Below are positions 2 through 18,573 of a stretch of DNA of 26,876 bases, piece after piece (position 1 is the stretch's first letter; each line of letters opens with the position of its first letter). The position numbers and the translations under genes are program-made. The stretch comes from a virus: positions 1 to 26,876 of IMG/VR virus record IMGVR_UViG_3300025810_001404; one strand, given 5' to 3'. The notes under the pieces are model-generated. The model searched no databases. It worked only from the letters and a program-made list of their open reading frames with translations, and was not told where the DNA came from.

Positions 2-244
2 AGTATCGTAGATAGCCATGCCAGCAGTCACACTACCTCCCGGCGAGTTAATATAAAGTGAGATATCTGCATCACTGTTTTCGCTTTCTAAGTATAGCAA
101 CTGTGCTACGATAAGATTAGCCATTTGATCGTGTACTTCTCCTTCTAAAAGGATAACACGATCACGTAGCAATCTACTGTAAATGTCATAACTACGCTCA
201 CCACGACTTGTTTGTTCTAAAACCATTGGTACTAATGATGCCAT
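2..244 (-). CDS. clpP: ATP-dependent Clp protease proteolytic subunit ClpP, N-terminal part (cut by window edge)
   Basis: The 81 visible codons start [20 protein letters not shown] and continue through [14 protein letters not shown] and [19 protein letters not shown]. These are the N-terminal axial-loop region, the first strand and the SPGG oxyanion-hole motif of bacterial ClpP, a serine protease that forms a double heptameric barrel and is fed by ClpX or ClpA. The catalytic Ser, His and Asp lie beyond the window, so activity cannot be judged. The ATG at 244 has an AGAGGAA ribosome site in the end of the upstream gene, 2 nt away, so the two are probably co-transcribed. ClpX and ClpS are encoded 5-7 kb away on the same strand. 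In some phages a ClpP-like fold serves as prohead protease, but this N-terminus looks like cellular ClpP. Confidence 0.93.
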
Positions 245-246
245 TT

Positions 247-519
247 TTATTCCTCTATTAATTGATATTCAATTTCTGTACAGCCTTTGCGATCAGACCA
301 CCAATCGGGTTCATAATCTTCAACGCATTCTGCTTCAGCAATTCTTTCCCAGCAAAAGTCATCTTTTTCATCGTCACCGGTTGATCCTTCTAAAAGGTAC
401 TGTATAAGTTCTTCTTCGGTAACCTTTTCATTACCTTCCCAATCTTTTGTAGACGCACACATAGTTTTTTTAATAAAAACTCTATGCCATTCTTCTTGTA
501 CAAAATTTATTTCTGCCAT
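247..519 (-). CDS. small acidic phage protein, paralogue of the protein at 11869-12177
   Basis: Ninety residues, strongly acidic, function not recognised. The start at 519 has an AGGAG ribosome site. The N-terminus carries EEWHRV and the C-terminus [15 protein letters not shown]. The protein at 11869-12177 has SEWHQV and MWTERKGGYDVTYDL in the same order and spacing, so the two appear to be paralogues. It is the first gene downstream of a sigma70-like promoter (544-572) and is followed after 2 nt by clpP. Whether it acts with ClpP, for example as adaptor or inhibitor, is unknown; the idea rests only on adjacency. Confidence 0.8.
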
Positions 520-543
520 GTTAACTCCTAAGTTATTTTTAAT

Positions 544-572
544 ATAATACTATACTGATAAATCAAAGTCAA
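544..572 (-). promoter_or_regulatory. sigma70-like promoter for the small acidic protein and clpP
   Basis: On the minus strand TTGACT (567-572) and TATTAT (544-549) are separated by exactly 17 bp. The -35 box overlaps the stop of the upstream gene. Transcription would start near 537 and leave a short leader containing the AGGAG of the gene starting at 519. Confidence 0.65.
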
Positions 573-1474
573 ACAATTTGGATATTAGTTACCCGCTGTC
601 TGTCTCTAATCCCCTCAACTATTTCTTTGGGTGACAAATATGTGTCTATAGTTGCTAATGGTATATTACCCGGTCTATTATATGGATGACTATATTCATA
701 TCTAGCATCGTAAAATTCTTTGTTTTCGTCATAGTGACGTTTATATAGTTTACGCATTTCTAACCAACTAGTCTGTGATGATTGAAAATAACGTATAACA
801 AAGTCACTAGCATAATGTCTGAATGGTTTGTATGCTTCATCCGAGATATGATGATCATCATCAATTGACAAGTCTTGTAATGTTTTTCCGATCTCTACGT
901 ACAATAGATATACAGTTCCAAATATATAAAAATCTTCAAACTCGTTGTAATCTTCTAAATCTAATGTACGTGCTTCAGGACCTCGGGGCATGTCGTAATA
1001 TGTAACTAAATGGGTCGGGAGCATTTTGCGTACAGTACCTTCTGCCATTGCTTCGCAACGATGCACTTCTAAATTTAGTTGACCTAATGCACGTTGAACT
1101 TTTTTAGGTGCACTCTGAAAGAACTCATGTGGCTCGTTCAGCATGCCGTGATAGACCTCAAATATATGATGCAGATAGTTTAACGTGTCTTGGTCTATTG
1201 TGTCGTATAATCTTTTTTCTATAAATCCGGGTTTGTATGTGTTAATAATGTCTATGCAATTATTAATAGCATTAATTGCTTTAATCTTTTCTATTTCCAA
1301 CGTATCAAATCCATACATGCGTTCTGGATCGTCTATAGTATACTTTTTTATAGATTCATCTAATAGTGCGGCCCACTTTTGTGCAATGGGCGTTTCATAA
1401 ATGCGAAAGTGCAATGTGAGTGGTTCATAATTTCCAGTGACACTGGAGTACTCTATCGATAGGTGTTTATACAT
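569..1474 (-). CDS. unknown phage protein, 301 aa
   Basis: No family recognised. It is a soluble, mostly helical-looking protein rich in Tyr, Asp and Glu, with no signal peptide, membrane segment or obvious catalytic motif. The N-terminus contains LTLHFRIYETPIAQKWAALL. It starts 15 nt after the stop of the nuclease gene and is the last gene of the run 3483-569, so it is probably co-transcribed with the 519-aa protein and the nuclease. No strong ribosome site precedes the ATG at 1474. Confidence 0.75.
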   Translation of the reverse strand: MYKHLSIEYSSVTGNYEPLTLHFRIYETPIAQKWAALLDESIKKYTIDDPERMYGFDTLEIEKIKAINAINNCIDIINTYKPGFIEKRLYDTIDQDTLNYLHHIFEVYHGMLNEPHEFFQSAPKKVQRALGQLNLEVHRCEAMAEGTVRKMLPTHLVTYYDMPRGPEARTLDLEDYNEFEDFYIFGTVYLLYVEIGKTLQDLSIDDDHHISDEAYKPFRHYASDFVIRYFQSSQTSWLEMRKLYKRHYDENKEFYDARYEYSHPYNRPGNIPLATIDTYLSPKEIVEGIRDRQRVTNIQIV

Positions 1475-1489
1475 AACTGTATTTAAGAC

Positions 1490-1915
1490 TTAATCAGTCC
1501 AGGATTCTTTTTTGCCGCCGTCGTATGGTCTAGCATGACCTTCATCAACTAACATTTGACAAATACTTTTACCGTCTTCTGTAAAAGGTATGCCTAAAAT
1601 TCTACCATATTTTCCTTTACCCAAAGATTGTACTTTGATTTTGCCTTTGCAAATTTCTTTAAGTCTGGCTTTGGCGGCTAATCCTAATTTCTTTTCTTCT
1701 TTGTTTCTAGTTCTGCTTTCTGGAGTATCGATGCCTGCTAATCTTACTCTTTGATTAGACATTAAAACGTTAAAGCCCAAATCAAACGTAACATCAATTG
1801 TATCACCATCAACAACTTTTTCTAACTTGCATTCGTAAATATAGGGTTCTACTTCTTTGTTTTGTATATTAATAGGTGTAGTGCCTATTCCAAATTCGTC
1901 ATTTTTTTCTGCCAT
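1490..1915 (-). CDS. staphylococcal nuclease (SNase/thermonuclease) domain protein
   Basis: A 141-aa SNase-like OB-fold nuclease. Ca2+-dependent members hydrolyse DNA or RNA to 3'-phosphates. Visible landmarks are VVDGDTIDV with Asp36 and Asp38, VRLAGIDTPES with Arg58, Asp63 and Glu66, and KYGRILG with Arg105. These match the catalytic Arg35/Glu43/Arg87 set and calcium ligands of the family. There is no signal peptide, so the protein acts inside the cell or in the virion. A good ribosome site (AGGAA) precedes the ATG at 1915. It sits between two unknown genes in the run 3483-569. A role in host DNA breakdown, or as a virion-packaged nuclease, is inference. Confidence 0.9.
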   Translation of the reverse strand: MAEKNDEFGIGTTPINIQNKEVEPYIYECKLEKVVDGDTIDVTFDLGFNVLMSNQRVRLAGIDTPESRTRNKEEKKLGLAAKARLKEICKGKIKVQSLGKGKYGRILGIPFTEDGKSICQMLVDEGHARPYDGGKKESWTD

Positions 1916-1923
1916 GTTTATTC

Positions 1924-3483
1924 CTATTTACGTTTTGATCTTCCAACTCCAGTTGTTGGTTCAGGTTTTTTAAAAATGTCAGTGACTTCTTTGCTTCCAC
2001 CTTTAGTTATTTTCTTTGCTTGTTTCTTTATGTCACCTTTTGACATAATGGCGTCATCTTTTGTGTCACCTTCGTCCGGTTCAGCAATAACAGTTTTGGG
2101 CGCAGTGTTTGCTAACTTAAATGAAAATCCACCTTTAGTAGGATCAGTTGCACCTGACTTAGATTCTAATGTAATTTTACCTTCAAGTTTAGCAGGCCAT
2201 TGCGTAGCAAATGACATAACTTTAGGACCTTTCTTTGTAGATACGTCAGCATACTGCTGTATAAAGTTCATGTCTAAAATTTCTAAAATAACACTTTGAA
2301 ACTCTGGTAATGCGCCGCCCTCGTTGACTGCTTCCATTACTGCTTTCTTAACTACATAAGTTAATTTGCCGCCGTCACTAGATGGCGCTTTAAAATCTGT
2401 GCTTTCCCATAAACTAGCATATTTAGGCATATCTATAGGTGTCGATGTTTTGAATGCTTTTAAACTTTCGTTAACTTCAGCAATCGTACTGTCTTTCCAA
2501 GGTAGGTAAGGTACAAATTCTTTTGGCACTGCATCAGGTACGTATCGTGCCAAGATGTTCATAGCGTAGAATACTTGCGAAACTGTCTTAGGCGTTGGGA
2601 GAGGCGCATCTGATTGACATATATCAATAAACTTGATAGATGCCTCATAATCAGGATTCTCTTTTAGATGATCAGGAACTTTTAGTCCACTAATACTTGG
2701 CGGAGCTCCGCCGCCTTTTCCTTTACTTGAGATATTAATAGTGTGATTCGTAGTCTTATTTTGGATAGCCGCAAAACTGTCAGCAATGTTATTGTTAGCG
2801 GCACTTGGGAAGTTAATAGTTAAATCACTAACGGCCCCACCCAACCATTCTTCAAAACTTCTGCGTCTTGGAAAACGTGATGTACCTACAATCAATGCTA
2901 ATACACCTAAATATTCACCTGCGTAATCGTGTATAGAAGAACGGACTTTAGCAGGAACATCTTCTGGTATAATCGGGTTTTTACCTTCTAAGATTTCGAT
3001 AGCCATTTGTATAACAATTTTACCATACTCGGTAGAATTGAGTACTTCGTTATTGATAATTTCTGATCCTAATTCTCCTGCAGGAATATCTCTATCTGTA
3101 ATTCCTATTTGTGAAGGCTTAAGTAGTGCAGTTTCTTTACCGACTTCTTCTGCTGAATCTGGAGTACCGACCGCGGCTTGACCTCCCAAATCTGCTGTCT
3201 TTAATAATTTACTGAGGGCAATTTCGTCACCGCTAGTCAAACGCATTTTTAATGTGCCTTTGAATTGGTCTTCGTCTTTTAATCCCTGAAATCTGTCTGC
3301 TTCTGCGGGGTCGGCTTTAACTTCTTCTCTGTCTACTGTATAGAAAGAGTCACCATTGCGGATCATGTCTATGAATTTTTCAAACCTAGACTGATATTTG
3401 TTTATTTGGCTAGCACTTAGAGTAACATCTTCAGCAATAAAAGATAAAGAGTCGATCAGGCTACGATAATTTGCATTCTCCAT
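1924..3483 (-). CDS. unknown 519-aa late protein, possible capsid-targeted protein
   Basis: Function not recognised. The N-terminus, MENANYRSLIDSLSFIAED, resembles the capsid-targeting peptides of T4 internal proteins, which end in a hydrophobic-x-Glu cleavage site. The middle has RFPRRRSFEEWLGG, then ADSF and INISSKGKGGG, vaguely reminiscent of a restriction-endonuclease-like core. The C-terminal 60 residues are Lys-rich and end in GVGRSKRK. A GATAAATA motif lies only 5 nt upstream of the ATG and there is no Shine-Dalgarno, so the message may be leaderless. It is followed 8 nt later by the SNase-like gene. A packaged DNA-binding or nuclease-associated protein would fit, but this is inference. 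Confidence 0.8.
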   Translation of the reverse strand: MENANYRSLIDSLSFIAEDVTLSASQINKYQSRFEKFIDMIRNGDSFYTVDREEVKADPAEADRFQGLKDEDQFKGTLKMRLTSGDEIALSKLLKTADLGGQAAVGTPDSAEEVGKETALLKPSQIGITDRDIPAGELGSEIINNEVLNSTEYGKIVIQMAIEILEGKNPIIPEDVPAKVRSSIHDYAGEYLGVLALIVGTSRFPRRRSFEEWLGGAVSDLTINFPSAANNNIADSFAAIQNKTTNHTINISSKGKGGGAPPSISGLKVPDHLKENPDYEASIKFIDICQSDAPLPTPKTVSQVFYAMNILARYVPDAVPKEFVPYLPWKDSTIAEVNESLKAFKTSTPIDMPKYASLWESTDFKAPSSDGGKLTYVVKKAVMEAVNEGGALPEFQSVILEILDMNFIQQYADVSTKKGPKVMSFATQWPAKLEGKITLESKSGATDPTKGGFSFKLANTAPKTVIAEPDEGDTKDDAIMSKGDIKKQAKKITKGGSKEVTDIFKKPEPTTGVGRSKRK

Positions 3484-3488
3484 GCATA

Positions 3489-3496
3489 TATTTATC
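3489..3496 (-). promoter_or_regulatory. late-type -10 motif GATAAATA before the 519-aa protein
   Basis: Minus-strand GATAAATA resembles the T4 late promoter TATAAATA. With the usual distance to the start site, transcription would begin at or next to the ATG at 3483. Confidence 0.45.
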
Positions 3497-3501
3497 GTAC
3501 T

Positions 3502-4005
3502 TTAACACTTAGACAAAGTTTGGTATTGAAACCACTTTTTAATTCTGTGTGCTGTTTTTAAGTTTAAACCATGACGATCTAATTTTGTTTTATGCTTAAA
3601 GAAACTAGGTCCATGCGACATAATTGGTTCTTTTCCTTGGGCACATCTTTTTGGTCCGTCAATGTCCCATTGGTATTGATGTACCATTTCATGTGCTAGG
3701 GTATCGATAAACCACTGCCTACAAAACCATTTCTCGCTTAATAAAATTTCACAATTCGATCTGGTTTTATATTGTTTTGGATGCCAAGTTGTAGCCTGGC
3801 ACAAACCCCAGTAAGTTCTTTTGTTTACAGTTTCAATAACAGGTCTAATTAGTCTACCTTGAAATAATGCAGTGTTTAGTACATTATATGTTTGGACAAT
3901 TTCTTTTTGAGTTGGGCGAAATACAAACCTTTTTTGTTTGGTGATTGAAGGTAAGTCCTCGTTCATCCATTCCCTTAGTTGCCGTCTGGCTTCTTTGGGT
4001 TCCAT
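3502..4005 (-). CDS. SprT-like zinc metalloprotease
   Basis: 167 aa. The zinc motif HEMVH (His105, Glu106, His109) lies in IDTLAHEMVHQYQWDIDG, followed by SHGPSFFKHKTKL, where His131 is the likely third ligand. This is the SprT/Spartan domain layout. Cellular Spartan proteases digest proteins crosslinked to DNA; bacterial SprT is poorly understood. The N-terminus (QTYNVLNTALFQGRL) matches the start of the SprT domain. No C-terminal zinc ribbon is present, so this is the bare protease domain. An AAGGAG ribosome site precedes the ATG at 4005, and a TTGATA-17-TAGAAT promoter lies further upstream. Clearing DNA-protein crosslinks during replication is the likely role, by family inference. Confidence 0.85.
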   Translation of the reverse strand: MEPKEARRQLREWMNEDLPSITKQKRFVFRPTQKEIVQTYNVLNTALFQGRLIRPVIETVNKRTYWGLCQATTWHPKQYKTRSNCEILLSEKWFCRQWFIDTLAHEMVHQYQWDIDGPKRCAQGKEPIMSHGPSFFKHKTKLDRHGLNLKTAHRIKKWFQYQTLSKC

Positions 4006-4054
4006 TTTAGATTCTCCTTTCGGTTCTTGTAATAGAATAGTCTCTAAATTATTT

Positions 4055-4083
4055 ATTCTACTACTTACTTAATCCTTTATCAA
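4055..4083 (-). promoter_or_regulatory. sigma70-like promoter for the SprT-like gene
   Basis: Minus-strand TTGATA (4078-4083) and TAGAAT (4055-4060), 17-bp spacer. An AATAAATA late-like motif overlaps the -10 box, so the gene could be read both early and late. Confidence 0.55.
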
Positions 4084-4117
4084 GTCACTTGGAAAAAGAT
4101 GTTGGTTACTGCACACA

Positions 4118-4126
4118 GATAAATAC
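4118..4126 (+). promoter_or_regulatory. late-type promoter motif GATAAATAC for the plus-strand pair
   Basis: GATAAATAC lies 26 nt upstream of the ATG at 4153, with an AAGGAG ribosome site between them. The same ATAAATAC core precedes the other plus-strand gene (25061-25069). It resembles the T4 late -10 element recognised by the phage sigma factor gp55. Confidence 0.6.
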
Positions 4127-4152
4127 TACGAACTCATAAAAAGGAGAAACAA

Positions 4153-4413
4153 ATGAGCGAATCTGAAATTTTGGGACTAGCCGTCGTACTTGCATTTGTT
4201 GCATTTGCAGGATGGCACGTCTTTAAGGGTAAAAGCGAATCTTCAAGTGGTGGCGGATCTGCTCCAGCAGAACCAGTAGCACCTGTTGCTAAAAAAGCAC
4301 CGGCTAAAAAGCCAGCCGCAAAAAAGACACCTGCTAAAAAACCTGCTAAGAAGCCCGCACCTAAAAAAGCACCTGTTAAAAAAGGTACAAAAAAATTAAC
4401 TGTAGCCAAATAA
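4153..4413 (+). CDS. membrane-anchored Lys/Ala/Pro-rich protein
   Basis: 86 aa. Residues 6-22 (ILGLAVVLAFVAFAGWH) form one membrane segment. A short Ser/Gly linker follows, then about 40 residues of repeating KKAPAKKPA units like the tails of histone H1 and bacterial H1-like or HU-extended proteins. The protein would place a highly basic tail on one face of the membrane; by the positive-inside rule this is the cytoplasm. An AAGGAG site precedes the ATG. It is the first gene behind a late-type motif. Options are a membrane tether for DNA, a holin-like lysis protein, or a virion DNA-binding protein; sequence alone does not decide. The long open frame on the opposite strand is a by-product of the repeats. 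Confidence 0.85.
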   Translation: MSESEILGLAVVLAFVAFAGWHVFKGKSESSSGGGSAPAEPVAPVAKKAPAKKPAAKKTPAKKPAKKPAPKKAPVKKGTKKLTVAK

Positions 4414-4426
4414 GTAGGCTGCCAAC

Positions 4427-5158
4427 ATGATAGAGATTGGGTTTGATGTAATCAGTGACCTTAAATTAGAACCTAATGATAATTTTAATTGGGAAGGTAA
4501 ACCTACAAGTTTGTACTGTCTATTAAGCGGAAACGTTAGTTCTAATTTGCATACACTAACACAAACTCTTGCTCATCTTAGTAAATTGTATCAAGGGGTA
4601 TTTTTTGTTCCTGGCGAACTAGAATATAAAGGCGTTGATAATATTAATCAACGAACTCAGGAGTTACTTAGTATTTCTGAGCAAATTCCCAATGTAGCAA
4701 TGCTACATCACAATGTTATTATTGTTGATGGCGTTGCTGTTATGGGTTCTTGTTGCTGGGAAACTGCACATGAGCCCGGGAAATCTATTTCTATTGATGA
4801 TTTAAAATTTTATCAATATCGTTTAGATGATATGGGTTTCCTACATCAAACTATTGAAAAATTACAGCGCCACGGTGATGTTAGAAAGATTATTGTAATC
4901 ACTAATGCTGTTCCAAATCCTAATTGTTATTTTGGTCAAGTGCCAGAATATTCACAATTACAGGCGCCAGTTGACACTATACTAAATTCAGACACAGAAG
5001 CAAAAGTTTCTCATTGGGTATATGGTTCATATGGAAAACCAGTAGAAGCAACTCTACTGGTACCGAGAAAGAATGATATACTTGCTCTTACAAATCCACT
5101 AACAGATAAATCTGACGTTAAAAACTACTACGCAAAAAGAATTTCTGTTTCAATTTAA
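4427..5158 (+). CDS. calcineurin-like phosphoesterase fold protein with lost metal ligands (pseudoenzyme)
   Basis: 243 aa. The order of motifs follows the metallophosphoesterase fold, but each metal site is altered. SDLKLE (Asp11, Lys13) replaces SDLHLE; SGNVSSN (Asn36) replaces GD(I/V); VPGELEYKG (Glu64, Leu65) replaces PGNHE; VITNAVPNP (Asn160) replaces the THxxP motif; and WVYGSYGKP (200-203) replaces WxxGHTH. The scaffold hydrophobics around these sites are kept, so the fold is probably intact while two-metal catalysis should be lost. It lies 13 nt after the Lys/Ala/Pro-rich gene and probably shares its late transcript. Its stop overlaps the clpS stop, which converges from the other strand. 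A structural or binding role is likely. Confidence 0.75.
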   Translation: MIEIGFDVISDLKLEPNDNFNWEGKPTSLYCLLSGNVSSNLHTLTQTLAHLSKLYQGVFFVPGELEYKGVDNINQRTQELLSISEQIPNVAMLHHNVIIVDGVAVMGSCCWETAHEPGKSISIDDLKFYQYRLDDMGFLHQTIEKLQRHGDVRKIIVITNAVPNPNCYFGQVPEYSQLQAPVDTILNSDTEAKVSHWVYGSYGKPVEATLLVPRKNDILALTNPLTDKSDVKNYYAKRISVSI

Positions 5159-5463
5159 GCCTCTGCTTCTACTTTAATTTGTAGCGGATATCCTCTAGAC
5201 CTAGCGTCTAAGGTTACTTCAATACCTTTTTGTTCTGCAACTTCATAGGGTAATACGGCAACGATTGCACTCCCTTGATCATGGATATCAGTAGTAATTT
5301 GACTTGCAGTATCTGGGTTGTAACTAAAATACGAACATAATGATTCTACTACAAACTCCATAGTAGTCACTTCATCATTAATATAAATCACACGATATAA
5401 TGGTGGCTCTTGTAGTGCGTAGTTTGGTTTAATCTTCTGTTCTGTATCAAATTCTGCGGACAT
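5155..5463 (-). CDS. clpS: ClpS, adaptor of Clp protease (N-end rule)
   Basis: 102 aa, the normal family length. PPLYRVIYINDEVTTMEFVV matches the ClpS core that binds N-terminal Leu, Phe, Tyr or Trp; the Asn-Asp pair and Met of that pocket are present. The conserved helix follows as IHDQGSAIVAV. Cellular ClpS delivers N-degron substrates to ClpA and inhibits SsrA-type degradation by ClpAP. No clpA is in this window; only clpX and clpP are. A strong AAGGAG site precedes the ATG at 5463. A hairpin (5490-5515) separates it from hsp20. Its last codon overlaps the convergent gene ending at 5158. Confidence 0.95.
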   Translation of the reverse strand: MSAEFDTEQKIKPNYALQEPPLYRVIYINDEVTTMEFVVESLCSYFSYNPDTASQITTDIHDQGSAIVAVLPYEVAEQKGIEVTLDARSRGYPLQIKVEAEA

Positions 5464-5480
5464 GTATTACTCCTTGTATG

Positions 5481-5526
5481 ACTTAATGAAAGTGCGGCCT
5501 TTTACAACCGCACTTAATTATTAAGT
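5481..5526 (-). terminator. hairpin between hsp20 and clpS, possible terminator
   Basis: Core stem AAGTGCGG (5490-5497) pairs with CCGCACTT (5508-5515) around a 10-nt loop. It is extended by ACTTAAT (5481-5487) pairing with ATTAAGT (5520-5526). There is no long U-tract, so it may only attenuate, or protect the hsp20 mRNA 3' end. Confidence 0.55.
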
Positions 5527-5536
5527 TTCTATTATA

Positions 5537-6004
5537 TTATTTAGCAGATTTAATTGCAATCTTTCTGGGTAGTAATTCCTCAGGAATTTTGCGATGTAAT
5601 TTAATAGATAGAATACCATCTTTCATTGCGGCTCCGTCTACTTCAACATGATCTGCTAAAGTAAATGAACGTGCAAATGATCTTGCACTGATGCCACGAT
5701 GTAGATACTCAGGCTCTACTTTGTCCTCAGTCACATCTTTGGGTTGTTGCACACTGCTAACAGTGAGTTGGTTCTTTTCAATTTCGATTTCAATATCGTC
5801 TTGTTTAAACCCAGCAACAGCCAATTCGATTACATACGAATCTTCAGACTCTTTGATGATATTGTAGGGAGGATAATTCTCCTTGCCTGCAATAGATGCA
5901 ATACGATTGAACTCGTCAAAGACTGAATCGAAACCGATGCCAAATTTGTGAATTGAAGGAATGTCTAAAGAATTTAGACGTAAGGTTGGAATATTGCTTG
6001 TCAT
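5537..6004 (-). CDS. small heat-shock protein, IbpA-like Hsp20
   Basis: 155 aa. The alpha-crystallin domain runs from about residue 42 to 140: YPPYNIIKESEDSYVIELAV opens it, AGFKQDDIEIEIE follows, and EYLHRGISARSFARSFTL is the hallmark of the proteobacterial IbpA/IbpB class. The C-terminal PRKIAI carries the I-x-I-type tail that docks into neighbouring subunits. Such chaperones hold unfolding proteins for refolding or degradation. An AAAGGAGAA site precedes the ATG at 6004 and is masked in a ROSE-like hairpin (6017-6028 region; see separate entry). A GATAAATA late-type motif lies at 6089-6096. Neighbours clpS and clpX support a proteostasis role. Hsp20 proteins also occur in cyanophages and other marine T4-like phages. 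Confidence 0.95.
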   Translation of the reverse strand: MTSNIPTLRLNSLDIPSIHKFGIGFDSVFDEFNRIASIAGKENYPPYNIIKESEDSYVIELAVAGFKQDDIEIEIEKNQLTVSSVQQPKDVTEDKVEPEYLHRGISARSFARSFTLADHVEVDGAAMKDGILSIKLHRKIPEELLPRKIAIKSAK

Positions 6005-6011
6005 GTTATTT

Positions 6012-6028
6012 CTCCTTTAATAAGCAAG
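6012..6028 (-). promoter_or_regulatory. ROSE-like RNA thermometer hairpin masking the hsp20 ribosome site
   Basis: In the minus-strand mRNA, TTGCTT is followed by loop ATTA and then AAGGAG, the Shine-Dalgarno of hsp20. Pairing gives U-G, U-A, a G-G opposition, C-G, U-A and U-A. A U(U/C)GCU strand facing the Shine-Dalgarno with a G-G pair is the defining feature of ROSE thermometers, which control ibpA/hsp20 genes in proteobacteria. Two further hairpins (6038-6058, 6058-6085) precede it, as in multi-hairpin ROSE leaders. Confidence 0.5.
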
Positions 6029-6037
6029 ATTAAATGT

Positions 6038-6058
6038 TGGTCCCTAATTAGGCGACCA
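6038..6058 (-). promoter_or_regulatory. leader hairpin A of hsp20
   Basis: TGGTC (6038-6042) pairs with GACCA (6054-6058), and CCT (6043-6045) with AGG (6050-6052), around AATT, with one bulged base. It lies between the late-type motif and the ROSE-like hairpin. Confidence 0.5.
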
Positions 6059-6085
6059 TGTGATAAGAAACCTATCTTAACACAT
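6058..6085 (-). promoter_or_regulatory. leader hairpin B of hsp20
   Basis: ATGTG (6058-6062) pairs with CACAT (6081-6085), and TAAGA (6064-6068) with TCTTA (6075-6079), separated by an A-A mismatch, loop of 6. A transcript begun from the GATAAATA motif at 6089-6096 would start at about this hairpin. Confidence 0.5.
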
Positions 6086-6088
6086 ATC

Positions 6089-6096
6089 TATTTATC
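6089..6096 (-). promoter_or_regulatory. late-type -10 motif GATAAATA for hsp20
   Basis: Minus-strand GATAAATA sits between the cloverleaf (6099-6197) and the hsp20 leader hairpins. It would give a leader of roughly 80 nt ending in the ROSE-like hairpin. Confidence 0.45.
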
Positions 6097-6098
6097 AT

Positions 6099-6197
6099 TT
6101 GTTTACAGTAGGTACGCAAAACCTAGGGGAGTATTATTGAGTCTTTACAATAAGTCCGTTGCCCTAGATGAACCTATCCTCTTTCATCTGTAAACAA
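6099..6197 (-). ncRNA. putative structured RNA with cloverleaf fold between bS21 and hsp20
   Basis: A perfect 10-bp closing stem (TTGTTTACAG at 6099-6108 with CTGTAAACAA at 6188-6197) encloses three arms with almost no unpaired junction bases. Arm 1 is TAGGT/ACCTA (6109-6113 with 6121-6125, loop 7). Arm 2 is GGG/CCC (6126-6128 with 6162-6164), then TTATTG/CAATAA (6134-6139 with 6148-6153, loop 8). Arm 3 is ATGAA/TTCAT (6168-6172 with 6183-6187, loop 10). An AATAAATA late-type motif lies upstream for minus-strand reading. It lacks tRNA features (no D-loop GG, no TTC T-loop, no CCA-like end). The strand is inferred from flanking genes; a DNA cruciform or protein-binding site is an alternative. 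Confidence 0.55.
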
Positions 6198-6222
6198 TAT
6201 ATGTTTATTATAAAACAATAGA

Positions 6223-6230
6223 TATTTATT
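6223..6230 (-). promoter_or_regulatory. late-type -10 motif AATAAATA before the cloverleaf
   Basis: Minus-strand AATAAATA lies about 26 nt upstream of the closing stem of the cloverleaf, so a transcript would begin a few bases before it. The surrounding AT-rich sequence (6198-6272) holds no gene. Confidence 0.35.
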
Positions 6231-6272
6231 ATATATGATCGAATTATAAAATTTCAAGTAAATTGGATAAAA

Positions 6273-6560
6273 TTAATATTTTCTTTTGCGACTTAACAAT
6301 TCTTTAGAAACACGTGTTTTTTCACGTTTCTTTGCCATCGCTTTTGCAACTTTTCTTTTTTGTGTTGGTTTTTCGTAATACTCTCTATCTCTAAGTTCTT
6401 GCATTAACCCTGAATTAGAAATTTTCTTTTTGAGTTTTCTTAGGGCTTGATCAACATTACCGTCAATGACTATTACTTTATTACCAAACACCCGTGGTGT
6501 TTGTTCTTTAGGTTTGCGTTGAAAGGTTTTCTTGTATTTTTGATTTCTGTTATAACTCAT
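6273..6560 (-). CDS. rpsU: ribosomal protein bS21
   Basis: 95 aa against about 70 for cellular bS21. The core from residue 28 on, VIVIDGNVDQALRKLKKKI, then RDREYYEKPTQKRKVAKAMA and a Lys/Arg-rich tail ending RKRKY, matches bS21 across its length. The extra 27 N-terminal residues are basic and Gln/Asn-rich. bS21 sits by the anti-Shine-Dalgarno of 16S rRNA and aids initiation. A phage copy could replace the host protein and bias initiation toward phage mRNAs (inference). The ATG overlaps the clpX stop in ATGA, implying translational coupling. A GATAAATA motif inside clpX (6598-6605) could add a separate late start. Confidence 0.93.
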   Translation of the reverse strand: MSYNRNQKYKKTFQRKPKEQTPRVFGNKVIVIDGNVDQALRKLKKKISNSGLMQELRDREYYEKPTQKRKVAKAMAKKREKTRVSKELLSRKRKY

Positions 6561-7756
6561 AAAAGACTTTTTGGCTGTAATGTCAATTCCTTATTGATAT
6601 TTATCTCTGTGATTCCTTTTTTACGATATTTTACAGAATTAAACATATGAGGCATCAGCACACGTTCTACTTCGCTTTGTAATCCACGTGCCCCGATTTT
6701 TGAAGTCATACAGTTTATAACCATTTCTTCTATTGCGTCATCGTCAAACGACAAATCAATTTCGTCAATCTTAAACAAATGCTTGTATTGGTCAATAAAG
6801 TTATTTTTAACTCCGGTTAATACTTTGATTAATTCAGTTTTTGTTAGTTCTTCTACACATATATTAGTAGAAAATCTTCCAATAAATTCTGGTATCATTC
6901 CATATTTTATTAGGTCGTCTGGTTTTAAATCATCACAGTTTATTATGCTGTTTTCTTTTAATTCGGAACCAAATCCAATAGAAGTGCCAGTTGTTCTATT
7001 TTTAACAATAGTTTCTAGTCCTGAAAAGGCGCCCCCTGCAATAAACAATATATTGCTAGTATCTAATTCAATTAGGGGTTCCTGTGGGTGTTTACGTTTA
7101 CCCATTTGCGGTATACGTGCAATAGTACCTTCAACCATCTTTAGAAGTGCTTGCTGAACGCCCTCTCCGCTTACGTCACGTGTTATAGACGTACTCTCAC
7201 TCTTACGTGATATTTTATCTATTTCGTCTATAAAGATGATTCCTTGCTGTGCTAGTTCGGCATCGCCGCCTGCTTTTGATAGTAGCATACTCAGCATGTT
7301 TTCAACATCTTCTCCTACGTAACCTGCTTCTGTTAAGTTTGTAGCATCTGCTACAACAAAAGGTACATTAAGATATTTGGCTACTGATTTGGCTAACAAA
7401 GTTTTACCGCAACCAGTAGGTCCAATTAAGAGAACATTTGCTTTTTGTATTTGCAAATCCCCTTCTGGTGGATTGTATACCCTTTTGTAATGGTTTGCAA
7501 TTGCAACACTAAGGACCATTTTTGCTTTGTGTTGGCCAACAACATATTTGTCAAGGTGACGTAAGATATTATAGGCGTCAATAGTTTTTGGCGCTTTCTT
7601 TTTTGTAGTTTTTTCAGTTTTTTCTTCGTCTATTAATTCCTGACACAGGACGACACAATCAGAACAAATTGCTACGTCTTCACCTACAATAAGTTTTGTT
7701 ACCGCGTCTTTGTGATTGCCACAAAAAGAGCAGTTTTGATTTTTATTATCTGCCAT
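6557..7756 (-). CDS. clpX: ATP-dependent Clp protease ATP-binding subunit ClpX
   Basis: 399 aa, close to the cellular length of about 420. Domains in order: N-terminal zinc-binding domain (Cys9, Cys12, Cys31, Cys34), Walker A GPTGCGKT (112-119), pore loop GYVGED (145-150), Walker B IIFIDE (173-178), the RKHPQEP pore-2 region, the IGF loop that docks on ClpP (260-262), sensor region IPEFIGR, and sensor 2 in KIGARGL. All parts needed for unfolding and ClpP docking are present, so it is probably active. It follows the FlgT-like gene by 20 nt in an operon begun by the promoter at 9501-9529, and it overlaps bS21 by 4 nt. It should pair with the ClpP encoded at the window start or with host ClpP. 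Confidence 0.97.
6598..6605 (-). promoter_or_regulatory. late-type -10 motif GATAAATA inside clpX, upstream of bS21
   Basis: Minus-strand GATAAATA lies 37 nt upstream of the bS21 start, inside the last codons of clpX. It could allow bS21 to be made late without clpX. The motif may also be there by chance in AT-rich coding DNA. Confidence 0.3.
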
Positions 7757-16806: not shown

Positions 16807-18573
16807 CTAGTCCGAGAATACAGGATCATATTGATCGTGGACTCCAGTCCACCAGTACTTTAAAATATTTTCTGCTGGCTTGCCTCTAATAGATTGTGAA
16901 ATTTCTGGAAATCCTTCTCTAACTGAGGGGATATCTTTTTCTTGTGATGCACGTTGCAATGACGGCGTCAGCCAATAACTACAACTAGGTTGAATTCCTG
17001 CAATAGTCCAAGATGTTTGTAGACTAATTGCTTGCAATACCCCTTCATAAAAAACTGCTTGCCTAGAAAAGTCAATTGCTTCTCTAGTAACAGGAAGTTG
17101 AACACATTTTGGATCGGAATATCCTTCAATAGTTCCCGGAGTACAAAATCCATCTTCCATCCAACCGCGATAGGGAAAAAACTCTGTGCTTTGTGACACG
17201 ATTTGAAAGACTACAGGCACATCTTGTGATGTAGAATAACTGCCTTTGGGTTTCTGACCGTCGTGACCAAAGAAATTATTATAAGACCTCTCCATATCTT
17301 CTAATAATCTGTCTCTAATGAGTTCTACGGTCATTGATTTGTTTTCTTCTGCGTCTCTGATAAACCCACCAAACGACTTTTGAATAATGTCTACTTTTTC
17401 TAACACACGCCAATCATTCCAAATGGGTCCGTCACCTATCCAAATTTCTCCGCTAAATTTTGACCTGATAACATCAATAGCCTCTGATACTCTTGTCATC
17501 CAGTGATCACGCAATTCAACTTGTGCTTGCGAATCATTAGGTATTTCACCATCTACTCCACAAAAGCATATCCACATTGCACTCCAATCAACAGAAAGGG
17601 CATCGATCCCGATTTGTTCTCCCCACTCTGCTGTTTCTAACATTAAGTTTTCATGTGCATCCCACATTCTATCAATTAATGCATGATCTACTCTTGCGCC
17701 TTGACTGAAAGGAAACAACCAGCGATCATACTTATCCAATGGCATAAATTGCCAAACGTAGTGAACCTCAACTCCATAGTCATGGGCTGTTTTGACAATG
17801 TATTCGATAGTTTTTTTGGATATGTGCCACCAAGCATCTTCTAATACCCAAAGATCAGCATTAGCATTTTCCCAATAACCGAAATTATAGATAGTAAGTG
17901 AATTTGCCCCGGTTTCTGCAAGTTCCATTATAGTCATACGATAATGTAATTTAACATATTCTTCTTTTGTACAATTCTCTGCCCAAGACGAACTGTGACG
18001 AGAATAATTGTCGTATACCCATTCTAAACTAAAATCTTTTAACCCCATGTCTCGTAACCAATGATTAGGTAACGTGTTGCTGGGATAAGGTATGTCCAGT
18101 GGACCCATATATCTTTCTGGGAATGCAGTAGAGTGTGGAGTAGTGCATGAACCTTCTGTATACGGATCATCAACATCTACGTATACAGATGCAACTGCTT
18201 GTCCATTACCGTCACAAGTTAAACGAAATTGGTATTGTTTTTCTTGCGTAACTTTAAATTCTTCAGTACCTGATGTATCTTTACTTCCTTGCCAATCTAC
18301 ATTGGCAGTACAGGATGTAGCATCAGTTGTAGCCCATGTAAGGGTGACATATTCATTAACTTTGGCAGACGTTGGTGTTACAGTAAATGAAGTAATTTGA
18401 GGCGCCGGCGTATTATTGGAACTACTGCTTCCGCTTCCACCGCCAGTGCTGGCTCCTACAACAGCCGCACCTACGTTAGTGCTTCCACCGCCCCCGCCGC
18501 ATGCGGCTAATACGCAACTGCAACATATGATAATAAGATACTTTTGTATCAGAGGAAATGTGTTAGTAACCAT
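16807..18573 (-). CDS. lipoprotein with Ig-like domain and glycosidase-like (TIM-barrel) region
   Basis: 588 aa. Signal and lipobox (LIIICCSCVLAAC) lead to CGGGGG and a Gly/Ser-rich linker. Residues about 55-135 (ITSFTVTPTSAKVNEYVTLTW and on) form an Ig-like domain with a Cys pair. From about 150 to the end the sequence (WLRDMGLKDFSLEW; NSLTIYNFGYW; VEVHYVWQFMP; GIDALSVDWSAMW; GEIWIGDGP) has the strand-helix rhythm and Trp/Asp/Glu-rich strand ends of a glycoside hydrolase TIM barrel. The exact family cannot be fixed by eye. It has its own sigma70-like promoter (18609-18637) and AGGGA ribosome site. It would be displayed on the host envelope; a polysaccharide target is inference. Confidence 0.7.
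   Translation of the reverse strand: MVTNTFPLIQKYLIIICCSCVLAACGGGGGSTNVGAAVVGASTGGGSGSSSSNNTPAPQITSFTVTPTSAKVNEYVTLTWATTDATSCTANVDWQGSKDTSGTEEFKVTQEKQYQFRLTCDGNGQAVASVYVDVDDPYTEGSCTTPHSTAFPERYMGPLDIPYPSNTLPNHWLRDMGLKDFSLEWVYDNYSRHSSSWAENCTKEEYVKLHYRMTIMELAETGANSLTIYNFGYWENANADLWVLEDAWWHISKKTIEYIVKTAHDYGVEVHYVWQFMPLDKYDRWLFPFSQGARVDHALIDRMWDAHENLMLETAEWGEQIGIDALSVDWSAMWICFCGVDGEIPNDSQAQVELRDHWMTRVSEAIDVIRSKFSGEIWIGDGPIWNDWRVLEKVDIIQKSFGGFIRDAEENKSMTVELIRDRLLEDMERSYNNFFGHDGQKPKGSYSTSQDVPVVFQIVSQSTEFFPYRGWMEDGFCTPGTIEGYSDPKCVQLPVTREAIDFSRQAVFYEGVLQAISLQTSWTIAGIQPSCSYWLTPSLQRASQEKDIPSVREGFPEISQSIRGKPAENILKYWWTGVHDQYDPVFSD

Follow-up and report, generated by a model that had tools for sequence, protein, structure and literature searches.

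The hsp20 locus and its leader

The window, that is, the whole stretch of DNA analyzed here, is a 26.9-kb virus record carrying phage-type proteostasis genes. A cluster of these within 8 kb (window 2-7756) encodes a ClpP-like fragment, an SprT-like protein, ClpS, Hsp20, ribosomal protein S21, and ClpX (Table 1). The structured element described below stands before hsp20 only in this cluster. Elsewhere in the window, a 588-aa lipoprotein-like open reading frame (16807-18573, minus strand) has no Pfam match.

Table 1. Features of the hsp20 leader and of the neighboring genes in the window
Feature	Position	Strand	Basis or remark
T4-type late promoter motif GATAAATA	6089-6096	minus	Sequence; transcript start expected a few bases downstream
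hsp20 leader	6005-6093	minus	
5' hairpin (AUGUG ... CACAU), clade specific	6058-6085	minus	Folds; common to close relatives L001-L014
Hairpin 1 of the ROSE-like element, UGGUC-(G6053 bulge)-CCU-AAUU-AGG-GACCA	6038-6058	minus	Folding and covariation across phages
Anti-Shine-Dalgarno (anti-SD) strand CUUGCUU with conserved bulged G6025 (UUGCUU, 6027-6022)	6022-6028	minus	Conservation and pairing
Hairpin 2, putative sensing helix, UCUU-(G)-CUU / AAG-GAGA, loop AUUA (6021-6018)	6011-6029	minus	
Shine-Dalgarno (SD) sequence AAGGAG, predicted to be sequestered by hairpin 2	6012-6017	minus	Sequence
hsp20 start AUG	6004-6002	minus	
Full extent of the match to covariance model R1	5999-6059	minus	65.3 bits, E 1e-10
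hsp20, small heat-shock protein, 155 aa, predicted regulated gene	5537-6004	minus	Pfam HSP20, E 1.4e-19; PHROG 432 Hsp20, E 4.8e-44
clpS	5155-5463		
Ribosomal S21 gene	6273-6560		
clpX	6557-7756		
ClpP-like fragment	Window edge		Identified by eye

Read 5' to 3', the leader runs from the motif GATAAATA through a first hairpin (6085-6058), a second hairpin (6058-6038), and a linker to CUUGCUU, the loop AUUA, the SD sequence, and the AUG. An earlier note, made from the sequence of the window, had located UUGCUU, AUUA, the SD sequence, the two upstream hairpins, and the late-type motif correctly, all on the minus strand. The window contains a single TTGCTTN{2,8}AGGAG, compared with 0.09 expected by chance, and the leader folds more stably than shuffled versions of itself (z about -2.5 to -3.0). 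Among 146 elements, 83 have TAAATA within 25 nt upstream of hairpin 1, mostly 4 to 5 nt before it, compared with 10.5 expected; this placement makes the structured leader the probable starting point of late transcription.

The additional 5' hairpin, which has the conserved loop GAUAGGUUUC, is restricted to the clade of the window (L001-L011 and L014), so that the leader has three hairpins in that clade; its closing pair changes from A-U to G-C in some relatives. Upstream, at window 6100-6196 (minus strand), about 145 nt are absent from the close relatives L001-L014. This stretch lies between the leader and a promoter-like CTTGAAA...TATAAT...ATAAATA (near 6220-6262) and contains a perfect 9-nt inverted repeat (TGTTTACAG at 6196-6188 and CTGTAAACA at 6108-6100) with nested stems. 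No conservation was found for this multistem region, and its stability is no greater than that of shuffles.

Pairing of the anti-SD strand with the SD sequence

The supported register of hairpin 2 consists of the pairs U6029-A6011, C6028-G6012, U6027-A6013, and U6026.G6014, the bulged G6025, and then C6024-G6015, U6023-A6016, and U6022-A6017. It was compared with the pairing proposed in the earlier note, a G-G opposition flanked by U-A and C-G pairs, across 177 leaders selected by protein similarity. The three outer pairs of the bulged-G register are canonical in 100% of these leaders, whereas the bases that correspond in the G-G register are canonical in just 32%, 55%, and 10%; the G-G opposition was accordingly rejected, the bulged-G register fitting all 177. 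The U or C of U(U/C)GCU always lies opposite G, and the G of the anti-SD strand (G6025 in the window) is invariant in alignment A1.

Most of the helix is invariant, and the covariation test was confined to its variable position, the pair formed by the base immediately 5' of U(U/C)GCU and the base immediately 3' of AGGA. This pair is canonical in 177/177 leaders (C-G in 97, G-C in 51, A-U in 28, and U.G in 1), with the G-C state belonging to an S-WAM2-like cyanophage clade and the A-U state to a pelagiphage clade. Placed on the protein tree, the pair changed state three times; in two cases both sides changed in a compensatory way, and the third was a change from C-G to U.G in a single leader. 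These data support a predicted pairing of UUGCUU with the SD sequence around one bulged G, in the same local UGC/GG form as that seen in hairpin 1. The many phage leaders supply naturally occurring covariation that pins down the pairing register at the SD sequence in a ROSE-type helix. In one hsp20 leader (L170:3195-3254), hairpin 1 appears as a perfect stem that lacks the bulged G, and the bulged G is retained in the SD helix.

Conservation and covariation of hairpin 1

Hairpin 1 has a characteristic form, consisting of a stem, a single bulged G, an inner stem beginning with C, and a loop. This exact bulged-G hairpin was found upstream of TTGCT or TCGCT in 148 of 158 elements (94%) compared with 5% of shuffled sequences. 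On a MAFFT alignment of 56 diverse leaders, both sides of the pairs had changed in 95 cells, compared with 31.8 for shuffles (none of 500 reached the observed value) and 11 to 37 when the pairing was slid along the alignment, though kinship among the sequences means that these figures are not probabilities. The covariation was confirmed on a model-based alignment of 49 elements, and for several pairs between four and six of the standard pair types are represented. RNAalifold alone, run on the MAFFT alignment A1, recovered hairpin 1 and did not recover hairpin 2, a result that counts against the thermometer reading; A1 misplaces the 3' arm in several rows. Related leaders show strong covariation in hairpin 1 and compensatory change of the SD helix in two clades. 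The earlier note held that its proposal would fall if TTGCT opposite the ribosome site were neither conserved nor covarying, and the motif proved to be near-universally conserved.

Distribution among phages and association with chaperone genes

A scan of viral contigs with the Hsp20 protein of the window yielded 80 relatives. In these, an hsp20 with a leader of its own almost always has CTTGCTT a short distance ahead of the SD sequence. Three further protein-only scans using cyanophage and pelagiphage Hsp20 produced 123 nonredundant leaders; all but one (122) show U(U/C)GCU ahead of the SD sequence, and nearly all have a visible hairpin 1. In four contigs (L056, L058, L061, and L073), the element precedes an upstream dnaK and is absent at hsp20, because hsp20 there directly follows another gene, dnaK.

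Construction of covariance model R1 excluded the window, its closest relatives, and every dnaK element. The model recovered the window element at the score given in Table 1 and also found the excluded dnaK leaders, with scores of 33 to 60 bits, and the groES leader, with 36 bits. Matches were found in 17 of 18 whole phage records, and the inspected matches at E < 0.001 in phage records all precede hsp20 or dnaK.

TTGCT lies within 16 nt upstream in 154 of 478 nonredundant AGGAG-ATG sites, a proportion inflated by the fact that the loci were partly found by the TTGCTT pattern. These TTGCT-bearing sites precede hsp20, dnaK, or groES, except for five (L121, L130, L182, L089, and L144), and representative dnaK and groES products were confirmed by Pfam. 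The sites in L121, L130, and L182 have no hairpin and appear to be due to chance. TTGCT before the SD sequence is essentially confined to chaperone genes, and this confinement is not a product of the TTGCTT search pattern. Good copies of the element in L089 (2798-2859, minus strand) and L144 (4155-4212) precede small genes of 90 and 65 aa, the products of which match no Pfam or PHROG family and look phasin-like by eye. L115 has an element ahead of a rubredoxin gene (2231-2286) and, before the hsp20 downstream of that gene (2396-2459), a further CTTGCTT that faces the SD sequence and has no normal hairpin 1.

The element was read directly in cultured phages, namely, Methylophilales phage Melnitz-3, phage C48C1, the Sinorhizobium jumbo phage Phosso, Synechococcus phages S-WAM2, S-MbCM100, S-CAM3, S-PM2, S-RIM2, and S-SM2, phage Syn1, Prochlorococcus phages P-HM1 and P-RSM3, and Pelagibacter phages HTVC103P and HTVC115P. 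Pseudomonas phage PA5oct has the variant CUUGCG, and direct reading found the element absent from two Vibrio phages and from S-TIM5. The annotated GTG start of hsp20 in P-HM1 (NC_015280.1, 238-708) falls inside the element, and the true start is likely the ATG after CTCGCTATAACAGGAGA; the annotated start of hsp20 in S-CAM3 is downstream of the likely true ATG.

Relation to the ROSE families and to bacterial leaders

The earlier note had suggested a search with the ROSE covariance model, and here the window fell below every Rfam ROSE threshold. Rfam searches of the window at the gathering cutoff and at E values up to 10 returned no ROSE match, neither to RF02523 (ROSE_3; cutoff, 43 bits) nor to RF00435 (ROSE; cutoff, 45 bits), which counts against the thermometer reading. 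A preQ1-II riboswitch match in the window (16.4 bits, E 4.5, against a cutoff of 47 bits) and weak snoRNA and freshwater-2 matches were judged to be chance. ROSE_3 matched several relatives below its cutoff, namely, Melnitz at 34.1 bits (E 7e-4), C48C1 at 26.8, L124 at 26.1, and a dnaK leader (L083) at 23.9. As a positive control, the Pseudomonas-type ibpA in OQ572409.1 ("Pseudomonas phage Y7") scored 69 bits against ROSE_3; this is an unverified phage record that looks like host DNA.

Short ROSE-like elements are defined by two hairpins, of which hairpin 1 is stable and hairpin 2 presents U(U/C)GCU opposite the SD sequence; in the Pseudomonas ibpA leader, deletion of a conserved G (deltaG39) locks hairpin 2, and hairpin 2 alone confers the heat response (PMC3669281). 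Compared with the published definition (PMC3669281), the window leader has U(U/C)GCU (UUGCU, 6027-6023) imperfectly paired with the SD sequence in the 3'-proximal hairpin. Its number of hairpins falls within the described two to four, with the 5' ones stable (hairpin 1 and the clade-specific hairpin); it lies in the 5' untranslated region of a small heat-shock gene, with the element reaching the AUG; and the conserved G that weakens the anti-SD helix corresponds, by sequence, to the bulged G6025. The ROSE-type signature that had been noticed before hsp20 is thus supported by the agreement of architecture and motif with published short ROSE-like thermometers (PMC3669281). Judged by sequence comparison, the element is a real and widespread phage variant of the ROSE-like class.

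Bacterial genomes were scanned with a profile made from a four-protein Hsp20 alignment. Bacterial contigs with a related Hsp20 also carry ROSE-type leaders, three of which score above the Rfam ROSE cutoff. Reyranella-type sequences have a classical ROSE element (RF00435) above the cutoff, and other bacterial contigs match R1. A DNA comparison with E. coli ibpA gave no match. The bacterial ROSE-type leaders make it plausible that the element and the gene were acquired together from a proteobacterium, as the earlier note had supposed of a host; the phage and bacterial Hsp20 proteins are intermixed in a tree with weak deep support, which leaves the direction and number of transfers unsettled.

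In the open literature, to which the search was limited, no paper was found that places an RNA thermometer on a phage chaperone gene, in keeping with the earlier note, and papers on phage small heat-shock proteins, the Melnitz phage, and cyanophage noncoding RNAs make no mention of the element. The lambda cIII leader is the known phage thermometer and is of unrelated form (PMC4166951).

Possible function of the leader

The comparisons reveal a conserved, covarying leader predicted to pair with the SD sequence in phage chaperone mRNAs, gene specific and resembling ROSE. We consider it probable that the hsp20 leader is a phage-borne, short ROSE-like RNA thermometer. Judging from the motif, transcription from the late promoter would begin immediately ahead of the folded region, where hairpin 1 may act as a stable scaffold with its conserved bulged G. 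Hairpin 2 would pair CUUGCUU with AAGGAG in a helix weakened by one bulged G, so that translation of hsp20 should be low at ordinary temperature and rise once heat opens the hairpin. The presence of the element before dnaK and groES in other phages suggests that it acts as a general chaperone leader.

Nearest-neighbor energies of the isolated hairpin 2 are consistent with such melting (-3.8 kcal/mol at 15°C, -2.5 at 25°C, and -0.9 at 37°C), and its two-state melting temperature is about 44°C, compared with 46°C for the Pseudomonas core. Standard folding energies nevertheless lend the thermometer no independent support, and two further results count against it. In full-ensemble folding, the SD sequence was neither less accessible nor more temperature dependent than in 72 control phage leaders, and AAGCAA (5999-5994) in the coding region offers UUGCUU (6027-6022) a competing partner, a pairing that would leave the SD sequence free. 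Heat-dependent melting and translational control of hsp20 are inferred, and a thermal function of the phage ROSE-like leaders is likely.

A tentative alternative is that the element serves mainly as a binding site for Hsp20, which would repress its own leader until unfolded proteins titrate it away, temperature acting only indirectly, by analogy with E. coli IbpA. At one position of a G-I-A/S-x-R-x-F segment, the residue is arginine in 94 and lysine in 10 of 104 phage Hsp20 proteins; we take this position to be that of R93 in E. coli IbpA. The IbpA proteins of E. coli, Cedecea, and Vibrio repress their own 5' untranslated regions through the conserved arginine R93 (PMC10474464). Autoregulation would also accommodate the elements before dnaK and groES, which Hsp20 could repress in trans, and the plain thermodynamics, which give no sharp thermal switch; however, melting already explains the conservation of hairpin 2, and the arginine is common in proteobacterial small heat-shock proteins generally. 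Binding of Hsp20 is putative and is compatible with a thermometer rather than exclusive of it, and the thermometer family is possibly also sensed by Hsp20 itself.

It is improbable that the leader is a constitutive structure that senses nothing, with hairpin 1 protecting the transcript end and UUGCUU merely setting the basal level of translation. Hairpin 1 is stable and located at the predicted 5' end, and hairpin 2 is weak in isolation, as such a role would have it, but the bulged G beside the SD sequence is exactly conserved in many lineages, which fits regulation better than a generic stabilizer, as do the restriction to chaperone genes and the kinship with known ROSE elements.

We regard as very unlikely a bistable switch in which UUGCUU would choose between the SD sequence (off) and AAGCAA (on). 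AAGCAA (5994-5999, minus strand) lies in codons 2 to 4 of hsp20, and similar complements of UUGCUU occur in Hsp20 genes starting MVSK or MVTSK (L090, L098, L185, and L194). The 6-nt complement is present in the window, in L001, and in these four, and the minimum-free-energy structure that includes the coding region uses this pairing. Complements of at least 5 nt occur in 20% of element-bearing genes, against 10% of controls, so that most members have no coding partner for UUGCUU and the feature belongs to a clade rather than being conserved in the family.

A chance resemblance or an artifact of SD conservation has a negligible probability, for although the SD sequence itself constrains the bases facing AAGGA, TTGCTT is near invariant even though ribosome binding does not require it, and the variable pair compensated in every leader, the frequency of hairpin 1 over shuffles, its covariation, and the detection by held-out R1 refute it.

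Nearly the same ROSE-like leader stands before chaperone genes in many viruses of aquatic bacteria, which probably use it to adjust their chaperone output to temperature or to damaged protein. A temperature-sensing leader on hsp20, if true, would tie water temperature directly to infection at the molecular level. More speculatively, several groups of aquatic phages (T4-like cyanophages, methylophages, pelagiphages, and jumbo phages) might possess an RNA-controlled heat-shock regulon of their own, in which the ROSE-like leader on hsp20, dnaK, and groES would set chaperone output by temperature and, through binding of Hsp20 to its own leader, by protein aggregation during virion assembly; we offer this as a doubtful extension.

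Comparison with known systems

The phage elements would share with the lambda cIII thermometer (PMC4166951) a phage RNA leader in which temperature-dependent structure governs access to the ribosome site, whereas cIII responds with the opposite sign (its translation falls at high temperature), has an unrelated structure, and serves the choice between lysis and lysogeny rather than a chaperone. IbpA self-repression (PMC10474464) likewise involves the leader of a small heat-shock mRNA with a sequestered SD sequence, and the arginine is mostly kept in phage Hsp20, for which binding is hypothesized.

Classical ROSE elements (RF00435; Bradyrhizobium and other proteobacteria) also precede small heat-shock genes and have the U(U/C)GCU anti-SD sequence in the 3'-most hairpin, but they comprise three to four hairpins in about 90 nt, whereas a phage element has two, with a third in the clade of the window. 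The Pseudomonas ibpA thermometers (RF02523, ROSE_3; PMC3669281) differ in having a σ32 promoter, whereas the phage gene is under a late-type promoter. The phage hairpin 2 is A/U rich, shorter, and without the clamping lower stem predicted in Pseudomonas, the phage sequence is under the Rfam cutoff, and the element is also found on dnaK and groES. In other respects the phage leader resembles these short ROSE-like thermometers, with the same two-hairpin plan, a leader of about 60 nt, a small heat-shock gene downstream, a stable hairpin 1 of the GAUGCC...GGGUC form with a bulged G, and U(U/C)GCU opposite the SD sequence.
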